Assembly: GCF_009735625.1 (NCBI RefSeq)
Contig: NZ_CP046244.1
Span: 2,232,001 to 2,296,000, forward strand
Source of the DNA: Moorella glycerini
Lineage (GTDB): Bacteria > Bacillota > DSM-521 > Neomoorellales > Neomoorellaceae
Length of the DNA: 64,000 nucleotides
Direction of reading: 5' to 3'
The notes below the pieces were generated by a model. The model did not search any database. It was not told the origin of the DNA and saw only the letters and a list, made by a program, of their open reading frames with translations. The position numbers and the translations under genes were made by a program. Numbering within the stretch: the stretch's first letter is position 1; each line of letters opens with the position of its first letter. Positions 3,268-49,151 of the stretch are shown here, piece after piece.

Positions 3268-3550
3268 TCTTTAGAATCCCCCTTTCTTCTGTCCTTCCTT
3301 CTGTTATATATTATACCCTACATCCTTACCAGGATGATTGTCGTATCTATACGATCCCAGGCTGATTGTGATGGCTATATTATACCACAGTTGGAATCGA
3401 AATCTTTAGAGGGATAGAAAAAAAGGAGACTGTTCTTGAAGGGGTGAAACGGTTCTATTTTTTTTGGTTAATTTTCTCTCAACCTGCAGGAATTTGGCAA
3501 AACGTGTTGAATAAATATCGACAGAATCCAAGTAAAATTTTCTTACTCCG
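3268..3550. other. Intergenic region upstream of the flagellar leader
   Basis: AT-rich stretch between the divergent Uma2 gene and the c-di-GMP riboswitch. It must hold the start of the flagellar operon transcript, but I could not settle a -35/-10 pair with good spacing. A TAAAAT hexamer lies near 3531, with only a poorly spaced TTGAAT upstream. A small inverted repeat, CGTAT-ctATACG, lies near 3344. A 62-codon open frame starting at 3444 runs through the riboswitch and is not believed. Confidence 0.4.
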
Positions 3551-3646
3551 GGCGTCAAGGGCAAGCTCTCCGAAAGGGGATGCGCGCAAAGCTATGGGTC
3601 TAAGGTCCGGGCAGAGTGGGACCGGACTATGATTGCCAGGCTACCG
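3551..3646 (+). promoter_or_regulatory. c-di-GMP-I (GEMM-I) riboswitch
   Basis: The leader carries the landmarks of the GEMM-I aptamer in order: a GGCAAGCTC segment, a CCGAAAGG tetraloop hairpin, GCGCAAAGC followed by GGTCTAAGG, and a 3' element GATTGCCAGGCTACCG. Its end overlaps a terminator stem, so ligand binding can decide between aptamer folding and termination. It lies about 160 bp before flgB, the first gene of the large flagellar operon. GEMM-I riboswitches are known to control motility genes, so this fits well. Confidence 0.87.
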
Positions 3647-3688
3647 TTTCCGGTTCTTTAAGCTGCCCGGTAAACGGGTTTTTCTTTT
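3643..3688 (+). terminator. Intrinsic terminator of the c-di-GMP riboswitch
   Basis: CCGTTTCCGG (3644-3653) pairs with CCGGtAAACGG (3667-3677, one bulged T), followed by a GTTTTTCTTTT tract. The 5' arm overlaps the last bases of the aptamer, so the two structures exclude each other. This is the expected expression platform. Confidence 0.75.
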
Positions 3689-14137: not shown

Positions 14138-14223
14138 TCTTTGGGAAGCGTTATTATCGAAGGAGCCCCTCATGGGGGCTGGTACCCCCGCCAGCGAACG
14201 ATGAAGATTTGCCGGGAGGTTAG

Positions 14224-14387
14224 GGCGGGGATATGTCCCGGAGCCTATGAGGCGTGGAGCGAAGGTCAAAAGGACAGGCGAGGTGAGGCAACCGCTGCCG
14301 ACGCTTAAGGCACGCCTGAGCGTACCTTTGTGAGGGAACAACGTAATCTCATAGAAGGATTAAAGATGGCGGAACCATATCCCCGCC
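14224..14387 (+). repeat. Long palindromic intergenic element, copy B (right arm missing)
   Basis: Member of a dispersed family (see 20653, 27481, 46299). The closing stem is GGCGGGGATAT (14224-14234) with ATATCCCCGCC (14377-14387). Inside it keeps the left arm and centre: GGACAGGCGAGGTGAGG at 14272, then a GCCTGAGCGTACCTTTGTGA block and TAATCTCATAGAAGGA, nearly identical to copy A. The right arm present in copies A, C and D is absent. It fills the flgE-flbD gap and is preceded by a separate hairpin, AGCCCC-tcat-GGGGGCT, near 14164. Confidence 0.85.
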
Positions 14388-14439
14388 AGAAGGCACCATT
14401 TCTGGCAGAACGCTATTTCGAAGGAGGGCGGCAAGGCAT

Positions 14440-20652: not shown

Positions 20653-20904
20653 AGGAGGATATGTCCCGGAGCCGCGAATAGTGGAGCGCCGGCAACAGGA
20701 CAGGCGAGGTGAGGTCACCGCTACCGCAGCCGAGGACGCCTGAGCGTACCTTTGTGAGGGAATAACGTAATCTCATAGAAGGAGTAAAGTTGGCGGAACC
20801 AGGAGCCTGTTCATGGGCAATCCGCAGGCGGCGTGTAGCGGTCCGAACCGAGCCGTCGTCCTGTCGGCGCGTAACTTTTGAGCGGCGGAGGGACATATCC
20901 TCCT
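20653..20904 (+). repeat. Long palindromic intergenic element, copy A (full length)
   Basis: A 252-bp element between flhB and flhA. A perfect 15-bp closing stem joins AGGAGGATATGTCCC (20653-20667) and its complement (20890-20904). The left arm contains GGAGCCGCGAATAGTGGAGC and AGGACAGGCGAGGTGAGG. The centre is GCCTGAGCGTACCTTTGTGA with TAATCTCATAGAAGGAG. The right arm contains CGGTCCGAACCGAGCCGT and CCTGTCGGCGCG. Copy D at 46299 is the same element in reverse orientation. The ribosome site and start of flhA lie just outside. Confidence 0.9.
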
Positions 20905-27480: not shown

Positions 27481-27611
27481 GGCGGTGATATGTCCTGGAG
27501 CCGCGATTAGCCCTCTTCATTGGCAATCCGCAGGCGGCGTGAAGCGGTCCGAACCGAGCCGTTGTCCTGTCGGCGCGTAGCTCCTGAGCGGCGCAGGGAC
27601 ATATCACCGCC
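27481..27611 (+). repeat. Long palindromic intergenic element, copy C (left arm missing)
   Basis: A 131-bp member of the family. Closing stem GGCGGTGATATGTCC (27481-27495) pairs perfectly with 27597-27611. It keeps the right arm, almost identical to copy A: GGCAATCCGCAGGCGGCGTG, CGGTCCGAACCGAGCCGT, CCTGTCGGCGCGTAG. The left arm and the conserved centre are gone. It lies between the MltG-like gene and flgF, with the flgF ribosome site outside. Confidence 0.88.
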
Positions 27612-46298: not shown

Positions 46299-46552
46299 GG
46301 GTGGGGCATGTCCCTCGCCGCTCAAAAGCTACGCGCCGACAGAACGACGGCTCGGTTCGGACCGCTGCATGCCGCCTGTGGATTGCCAATGAAAAGGCTA
46401 CTGGTTCAACAAACTCCAGTTCTTCTATGAGTTACAGCTGCCTTTCTCTCAAAGGTGCGCTCAGGCGTCCTCGGCGGCAGCAGCGGTAACCTCACCTCGC
46501 CTGTTCTGTTACCGGCGCTCCGCTATTCGCGGCTCCGGGACATGCCCCACCC
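46299..46552 (-). repeat. Long palindromic intergenic element, copy D (full length, inverted)
   Basis: A 254-bp copy in reverse orientation to copy A. Closing stem GGGTGGGGCATGTCCC (46299-46314) pairs perfectly with 46537-46552. Reading the minus strand gives the same order: GGAGCCGCGAATAGCGGAGC, ACAGGCGAGGTGAGG, GACGCCTGAGCGCACCTTTG, CTCATAGAAG, CGGTCCGAACCGAGCCGT. The centre has diverged more than in copies A and B. Downstream of flxA, before the PHP gene. Confidence 0.9.
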
Positions 46553-47353: not shown

Positions 47354-47456
47354 TGGCAAACTGTTAAATACTATTTAATTGTGAAAACAGGAACAAAAAC
47401 GGAGTGGAAGCGAAGATGATGGGGAGAGATCCCCGGGTAATCGCTGTTAAGTAATA

Positions 47457-49151
47457 CCTGAATCCGTGACAACCCAATAACAAAATATCTGGATATGGCT
47501 CAAAACCTCGCGAAAAATAAGGTATAATAGGCTGGATGGCAAACGAATCCATGTTCACCTGCGAGGTGCGGCCATGAAATTCATCATTGAACAGTCTGAT
47601 GAACACCTTACCCCCGTTGCCGGACTGGCTCTGGTGGGGGAAATCATTGATCATACTGCTCTGAAACTCAGGCTAAATAAGACCCGGATACCTGGTGTTT
47701 CTTCTCCGGATATTTCTCACGGGGATGTTATCACCTCTTACGTGGGCCTGCTTTGCCAGGGTCGCAGTGATTTTGACCATATTGAGCTTTTTCGGGATGA
47801 CCCCTTCTTCGCTGCGGCGCTGGGTATTCAGGATGTGCCTTCAAGCCCTACCCTGCGCCAGCGCCTGGATATGATAGCTCATAGTGTACCCTACCAGGAG
47901 ATTATCCTCGAGGAAACGGCCAGGTTCCTTAAGAAACTTAAGGCACCGGTAACTCCTGTTACCCTGGGTTCCAGGGAACTAAAGCGCCAATATGTCCCTT
48001 TGGATATTGATGTTACTCCCTTTGATAATTCAAATTCCAAGAAAGAGGGTGTTTCCAGGACCTATAAGGGCTACGACGGTTATGCGCCTATCTTCGCCTA
48101 CCTCGGTAGGGAAGGCTACTGCGTCCATACCGAACTGCGGGCCGGGAAACAGCATTGCCAAAAAGGGACGCCGGAGTTCCTGCGACAAGCTCTAACCTTT
48201 GCTCGCGCTATCACTTCGCTGCCACTTTTAGTACGGATGGATGGCGGTAATGACAGCCAGGATAATCTCCAGGTCTGTTTGGACCCGGAAATCAAAGCCG
48301 ATTTTATCATTAAGCGTAACCTGCGCAAGGAAACGCCGGAGGCCTGGCTGGCCATTGCCAAGGAAAATGGTACCGCCACCCTAGAACGGGAGGGAAAAAC
48401 CGTCTATCGGGGGCACCAGATGGTGAAAATCGAGGGTGCTGACACCCCTGTCCGTCTGGTGTATAAGGTCACCGAGCGGACGATATTACGAAACGGCCAG
48501 CTTCTCCTGGTCCCGGAAATTGAGGTCGAAACCTACTGGACCACTTTACCCGACCCGGTGGAGGATATCATTACCCTCTACCACGACCACGGCACCAGTG
48601 AGCAATTCCACAGTGAAATCAAAAACGATTTAGACCTGGAACGGCTGCCCAGCGGCAAGTTTGCCACCAATGACCTGGTGCTACACCTGGGTGTTTTCGC
48701 CTACAACATTCTAAGGCTTCTGGGGCAGTTTAGCCTCCCGCTAAAGGAGGTACCGCTGCGCAATAAGAAAGCTCAACGCCGGCGGCTGCGTACCGTTATA
48801 CAAAACCTGATTACCATAGCGTCCCGGCTGGTTCACCACGCCCGGCAGGTCAAATTACGATTTGGGCAGCACAGCCCGTGGTATCCAGCTTTCCGGTACC
48901 TATATAAAGCGTTGGCTTAATACAGAACTTCTAGCTCCAGTTAGCTGTATAAGCAGGCTCCAAGCCTCTTAGGACGAGAGGTCTACTTTGTTATTCCCTT
49001 ATCCAGGGGACCCAAGGTAAGAGTAAATAGCCTTCGTCCACATAATCAACTTTAGACCCAATTCAATGTATCAGCAGATGTTAAATATAACTGTTAATAC
49101 CATTTACTGTTAGTGCGAGTTCTACCCAGTTGTTATTATCACGGATTCAGG
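47457..49151 (+). mobile_element. IS1380-family insertion sequence (complete)
   Basis: A 1695-bp element. Left end CCTGAATCCGTGACAACC (from 47457) and right end, reverse-complemented, CCTGAATCCGTGATAATA (ending 49151) share 13 identical outer bases. It is flanked by TAATA direct repeats at 47452-47456 and 49152-49156. It contains one transposase gene (47574-48920) and about 230 bp of noncoding right end. It inserted between the PHP gene and the promoter of the riboswitch-controlled exchanger without hitting either. Confidence 0.93.
47574..48920 (+). CDS. IS1380-family transposase
   Basis: A 448-residue DDE transposase, apparently intact. Family features: N-terminal SDEHLTPVAGLALVGEIID, LDIDVTPFDNSNSKKEGVSRTYKGYDGYAPI near 140-170 (first Asp), LLVRMDGGNDSQDN near 222 (second Asp), and YHDHGTSEQFHSEIKNDLDLERLPSGKF near 340 (Glu). 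GCGAGGTG lies upstream of the ATG. Confidence 0.92.
   Translation: MKFIIEQSDEHLTPVAGLALVGEIIDHTALKLRLNKTRIPGVSSPDISHGDVITSYVGLLCQGRSDFDHIELFRDDPFFAAALGIQDVPSSPTLRQRLDMIAHSVPYQEIILEETARFLKKLKAPVTPVTLGSRELKRQYVPLDIDVTPFDNSNSKKEGVSRTYKGYDGYAPIFAYLGREGYCVHTELRAGKQHCQKGTPEFLRQALTFARAITSLPLLVRMDGGNDSQDNLQVCLDPEIKADFIIKRNLRKETPEAWLAIAKENGTATLEREGKTVYRGHQMVKIEGADTPVRLVYKVTERTILRNGQLLLVPEIEVETYWTTLPDPVEDIITLYHDHGTSEQFHSEIKNDLDLERLPSGKFATNDLVLHLGVFAYNILRLLGQFSLPLKEVPLRNKKAQRRRLRTVIQNLITIASRLVHHARQVKLRFGQHSPWYPAFRYLYKALA

Follow-up and report, generated by a model that had tools for sequence, protein, structure and literature searches.

A covarying, ORF-free intergenic repeat of Moorella and other Bacillota, and its probable spread as a mobile element

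Four long palindromic elements lie in the stretch of Moorella glycerini DNA analysed here (the window, 64,000 nucleotides in full), and their closing stems differ in sequence while each stays perfectly complementary to its own other end. A preliminary description of the window saw in this the mark of selection on RNA, or on cruciform DNA, structure. What kind of genetic element these repeats are, and in which form their pairing matters, is the question that our study addresses.

Copies in the window and their common fold

All four copies are present with the closing stems first described (Table 1), and only two of them are full length. Aligned by BLAST with the copy at 20653, the copy at 14224 covers query positions 13-157 and has lost most of its 3' half, while the copy at 27481 covers positions 162-255 and lacks most of the 5' and middle parts. 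The internal blocks that had been thought common to the four are shared less widely: the copy at 27481 has neither of them, and the one at 46299 carries one-base variants on the minus strand. Three of the four copies lie within one flagellar gene cluster, and two of those three are broken. Folded as RNA, the full-length copies at 20653 and 46299 fall 8.7 and 9.5 SD, respectively, below dinucleotide shuffles.

Table 1. Features in the window, with positions counted from its first nucleotide.
Feature	Positions	Strand	Remarks
c-di-GMP-I riboswitch aptamer	3550-3648	+	Rfam 59 bits, cut-off 35; only Rfam match in the window
Cassette 5' module	14161-14222	+	SD-like sequence, GGGGGC..CCCCC-type hairpin, GCCAGCGAACGATGAAGAT
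Internally deleted copy	14224-14387	+	Stem GGCGGGGATAT/ATATCCCCGCC; between flagellar hook/rod gene and FlbD gene
Cassette 3' module	14388-14427	+	AGAAGGCACCATTTCTGGCAGAACGCTATTTCGAAGGAGG; ends in Shine-Dalgarno sequence of next gene
Full-length rod element	20653-20904	+	Closing stem AGGAGGATATGTCCC/GGGACATATCCTCCT; between flhB-like (PF01312) and flhA-like (PF00771) genes
Middle tandem-GA module, 5' strand	20699-20716 (approximate)	+	Around GGCGAGGTGAGG (GGC-GA-GGU-GA-GG)
Middle tandem-GA module, 3' strand	20840-20858 (approximate)	+	Around CCGAACCGAGCC (CC-GA-ACC-GA-GCC)
Internally deleted copy	27481-27611	+	Stem GGCGGTGATATGTCC/GGACATATCACCGCC; upstream of flagellar rod/hook gene
Full-length rod element	46299-46552	-	Closing stem GGGTGGGGCATGTCCC/GGGACATGCCCCACCC; antisense to flanking genes PF00175/PF10418 and PF02811
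IS-like element	47450-48920		DDE transposase PF13701, ORF 47574-48920

The covariation of the closing stem extends well beyond the window. In the outermost 12 bp of 34 Moorella copies, which have 25 different 5' arms among them, the pairing of each arm with its own partner is 0.83, compared with 0.61 when the arms are swapped, and none of 5000 permutations reached the former value. The match between own arms thus exceeds chance; the outer stem is inherited within subfamilies rather than being unique to each copy. Among 35 aligned Moorella copies, 97% of the paired cells hold standard pairs, and changes on both sides are found in 12 pairs (6.5 in shuffles) and 81 cells (22 in shuffles). The inner helices covary as well, as in columns 72/198, with C-G in 18 copies and U-A in 16. 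In the cross-genus alignment, 45 of the 50 pairs have changed on both sides, and the covariation score is 0.398 against 0.119 after shuffling and at most 0.07 when the pairing is slid. Because that alignment was fitted to a covariance model and is biased by it, we made an independent alignment of 34 non-Moorella copies by sequence alone. Their consensus folds into the same rod at -111 kcal/mol, versus -19.8 (SD 4.2) for column-shuffled alignments, and 39 of its 62 pairs use at least two Watson-Crick types.

The rod contains a module of two tandem GA/GA loops three positions apart, GGC-GA-NNN-GA-GG facing CC-GA-NNN-GA-GCC. With at most two mismatches allowed, it occurs in all 73 copies from Moorella (35/35) and from the genomes G453 (18/18) and G089 (20/20), and it is less complete in copies from elsewhere. 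The apical part of the fold carries conserved single-stranded blocks. Several internal segments occur as alternative, exchangeable forms, so that the copies look mosaic.

It is important to consider whether the closing stem could be copied from the target site. We rejected this as its main source, since the same stem is found at no fewer than eight different loci and since two copies at one site in G001 and G010 (L049 and L051) have closing stems that differ by compensated base pairs. These two form a useful natural pair for the study of compensatory evolution in place; a copy in G004 (L053) lies near a flank similar to that of their site. Some other copies have lost pairing in place without compensation (e.g., L069 versus L019).

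If one RNA strand were under selection, G-U pairs should clearly exceed A-C mismatches. The counts are 40 G-U to 23 A-C in Moorella, with one column carrying 9, and 47 to 39 across genera; with hand-corrected pairing, the G-U excess is somewhat larger. Since the two exchanges are nearly balanced, single-stranded DNA is a possible working form. The initial reading that bases differ and pairing is kept thus holds through the whole rod and across genera, but the counts do not single out RNA as the target of selection. Tandem sheared G-A pairs form stably in hairpins of either nucleic acid.

Distribution and relation to catalogued families

The element, about 245 nt in length and non-coding, is highly repeated. 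A BLAST search with the copy at 20653 identified 27 separate loci in the source genome (3.56 Mb), 15 of them full length, and DNA-level searches found the element in 10 of the 11 Moorella genomes, with no match in genomes of other genera. A covariance model built from 35 Moorella copies (R1) reached full-length homologues far beyond Moorella, in other Bacillota. A phylum-wide sample yielded them in 26 of 398 genomes, and the class to which one match belongs in 45 of 113 genomes and 29 of 55 genera; both genome counts are to be read against a background in which the reverse strands of true copies reach about 50 bits. As any rod of this kind pairs with itself, such scores are expected of reverse strands, and for matches under about 50 bits we therefore required that the conserved motifs be visible in the sequence. 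Copy numbers reach 32 and 30 in two genomes (R1, E ≤ 1e-5).

In 84,980 species genomes, matches to a core pattern were limited to Moorella (including two close relatives of the source genome, M. stamsii and M. mulderi), Desulfoscipio, Desulfotruncus, Desulfallas, Desulfofundulus, Pelotomaculum, Ammonifex, Desulfovirgula, and Peptococcaceae/Clostridia bins. The element is thus scattered through Moorella and many of its sulfate-reducing relatives and occurs in at least two classes of Bacillota.

The statement that no described RNA class is recognizable here was borne out. Rfam release 15 has no family that reaches its gathering score at any element of Moorella or of the other genera (best chance match 12.1 bits, cut-off 40), so we rejected membership of an Rfam class. 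Our literature search, which did not extend to supplements and subscription papers, found no description of the repeat, and a phage or plasmid origin was rejected because no match was found. A covarying structure of about 250 nt with many copies in dozens of genera belongs in RNA and repeat catalogues, from which it is apparently missing.

One reading of so complex a conserved fold, with its apical blocks and wide distribution, is an independently transcribed structured RNA that acts in trans and whose gene has been duplicated many times. We consider this very improbable, given that 15-30 copies per genome, degraded copies and decay in situ would be unusual for such a gene, and that positions vary between species.

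Junctions, ends and orientation

Comparison of orthologous junctions across the other Moorella genomes shows the same sites occupied in some species and empty in others. At the 46.3-kb junction, G003, G007, and G008 hold only a stop codon, a Shine-Dalgarno sequence and ATG; an antisense copy occupies the site in the source genome (G000) and G002; the copy of G010 is sense and differs in its flanks and stem; and G001, G004, G005, G006, and G009 carry unrelated rod-like elements. Turnover is similar at three further junctions (14.2, 20.6, and 27.5 kb). The 27.5-kb copy is absent in G003, with only remnants in G001 and G004, and at the 20.6-kb junction G001 holds just GGGTGGGGATATGTCCCCACC, which resembles what a deletion would leave of a copy like that of G002. 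Presence and absence do not by themselves tell gain from loss at each of these sites, and a copy may have been lost from some that are now empty. In these thermophiles, different structured inserts have repeatedly filled operon junctions anew, a finding relevant to the way in which long operons tolerate and exploit large RNA structures between their genes.

At least three further families of rod-like, GC-rich intergenic elements (190-280 nt) occupy the same Moorella operon junctions, namely F2 (L098, L116, and L176), F3 (L082, L084, L102, and L111), and F4 (L112), and some of their members share 5' and 3' modules with the studied element. F3 and F4 score 22-24 bits with the F1 model; as F1 sequence read on its reverse strand already reaches 31, we do not claim common descent. 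Inside the rods of two unrelated genera (L082 and L084 of F3; L167 and L184 of the G288 element) lies a further small insert, bounded by CCCAGCACTCA...TGAGTGCTGGG.

The ends change between lineages, and the core is constant. Many Moorella copies have the 5' module in common, together with the 3' one and its terminal Shine-Dalgarno sequence; the 5' module also stands upstream of F2 elements and at other loci, and in L178 and L180 it supplies the stop codon of the upstream gene. In G089 the direct repeat TATTTTCAGGGCAG is often found at both ends, and copies in G288 and G265 are flanked by GTAAATATTCAGT...ACTGAATATTTAC inverted repeats. The sequence of the outer arms varies from one Moorella subfamily to another and from genus to genus, the GTAAATATTCAGT end being shared by G288 and G265 alone. 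The empty G003 sites show clean presence and absence with no clear duplication.

These ends bear on the possibility that the repeats are classical MITEs, that is, non-autonomous derivatives of a DNA transposon recognized at its terminal inverted repeats, with the internal pairing as a by-product of palindrome-templated repair. The dispersed, ORF-free copies and the G288/G265 flanks would agree with this. However, the G288 terminal repeats differ from those of Moorella and G089 while the core is common, no transposase with G288-type ends was found, and palindrome correction would remove internal loops such as the tandem-GA loops, which all 73 copies retain. We regard this explanation as improbable. 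Inverted repeats of transposon ends do not account for the pairing, because it is the core and not the ends that is conserved between genera.

No ORF was found in the element, and the copies are intergenic. In an all-against-all comparison of 295 neighbouring ORFs around the non-Moorella copies, no family recurred across unrelated genomes. A partner gene adjoining the copies, including one for a transposase or reverse transcriptase, was rejected on this basis.

In the source genome, about 17 of 20 substantial copies are sense to the flanking genes (about 17:3; ORF calls were mechanical and two were judged by hand), and in G089 the downstream gene is on the same strand in 18 of 20 copies. This agreement is seen in only 10 of 18 copies in G453. 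The difference between lineages likely stems from the site of insertion, which would be beside a Shine-Dalgarno sequence in Moorella and G089 and within a palindromic site in G453. The source genome consists of two GC-skew arms, and its antisense copies oppose both the replication strand and transcription, so that either of the two could underlie the orientation.

A sense bias would be expected of a cis-acting operon RNA, in which the sense-transcribed rod affects mRNA stability, processing, or polymerase elongation (e.g., antitermination in the long flagellar operon), and this function is the reason why its spread is retained; the three copies in one flagellar gene cluster, the strong covariation, and the conserved loops point the same way. 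Against this, there are clear antisense copies, including the one at 46299, and G453 lacks the bias; the same junctions are empty or otherwise occupied in sister species, two of the three flagellar copies are broken, and G-U and A-C changes are nearly balanced. We therefore consider a cis-acting function of this kind unlikely as the general explanation, and an RNA role may nevertheless exist in the Moorella and G089 lineages.

A probable mobile repeat and its known counterparts

Our study favours the reading that these repeats are probably a family of non-autonomous, ORF-free mobile elements of about 245 nt that are kept foldable as a single strand, either ssDNA or RNA. The conserved part would be the single-strand fold, a long helical rod that conserved tandem-GA internal loops interrupt and whose closing stem could vary freely in sequence provided that pairing holds. 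The recognized form would be the rod as single-stranded DNA (for instance, during replication) or as an RNA intermediate, and an enzyme supplied in trans would recognize it and insert copies at intergenic positions, which in Moorella are mainly operon junctions beside a Shine-Dalgarno sequence. What we observed is the repetition, the fold and its covariation, the broad distribution, the variable occupancy of given junctions among species, and the lack of an ORF; the enzyme, its recognition of a single strand, and whether the intermediate is DNA or RNA belong to the inferred part. Copies may persist because the rod folds independently and because, in the commonest Moorella subfamily, the 3' end would give the next gene its ribosome-binding site. 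If recognition of a single strand is true, this would be a mobile element of reversed logic, with its core conserved and its ends free.

Several observations count against this mobile-repeat reading. First, our searches found no clear target-site duplication, no cross-genus terminal inverted repeat, no transposase, and no autonomous relative. Second, the sense bias in Moorella and G089 could reflect a role at the RNA level. Third, an internal core kept across two classes would not be expected of an element moved by its ends.

A wider proposal, which we put forward tentatively and hold to be rather doubtful, is that mobile elements addressed through their structure form a broad class in Clostridia-like Bacillota. 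In these, the internal rod with its paired tandem-GA modules, and not the ends, would be what an enzyme acting in trans recognizes on single-stranded DNA or RNA; several distinct rod families (F1-F4 in Moorella) would have cassette ends in common, with turnover at shared operon junctions.

Among known repeats, the bcr1-bcr3 elements are often found in UTRs and operon intergenic regions, and bcr10 and bcr18 have conserved secondary structures (PMC3446304); bcr1 is specific to the Bacillus cereus group and measures about 150 bp (PMC2267715). Our element resembles bcr1 and the related bcr repeats in being intergenic, MITE-like, and ORF-free, and it shares with MITEs and bcr1-like repeats that it is short, non-coding, dispersed, present in many copies, and variably present between relatives. 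It differs from bcr1, as judged by description, in its length of about 245 nt, in its occurrence in at least two Bacillota classes, and in keeping its core rather than its ends.

Among the mobile/repeat sequence candidates (MRSC), MRSC-65-2 forms one long, strongly covarying stem and reaches dozens of copies in a genome; its authors regard it as a selfish element whose structure may matter at the DNA level (PMC11109978). Our element has the traits of the MRSC class, that is, many copies per genome, inconsistent orientation to genes, and covarying structure. MRSC-65-2 itself is found in diverse phyla and has a UYCCGG repeat (PMC11109978), whereas the core pattern described here, compared by description only, was detected only in Moorella and Desulfotomaculum-like genera, and the element is marked by tandem-GA loops.

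REP/BIME sequences mobilized by RAYT transposases are likewise palindromic, extragenic, and non-autonomous, and they are handled as single-stranded DNA (PMC3733652). REPs measure 20-40 bp and carry a GTAG or CGTC tag; a length of about 245 nt alone excludes our element from the REP/RAYT group, and its copies have no recurring neighbouring protein family. The element is thus apparently an uncatalogued member of repeat kinds already described (bcr repeats and MRSC, the comparison with MRSC-65-2 being by description) and not a new RNA class.

Two other features of the window were observed in the course of this study. The part of the IS-like element that was searched, up to position 48500, recurs at some 15 further genomic sites with about 100% identity, and the c-di-GMP-I riboswitch lies some kilobases upstream of flagellar genes.
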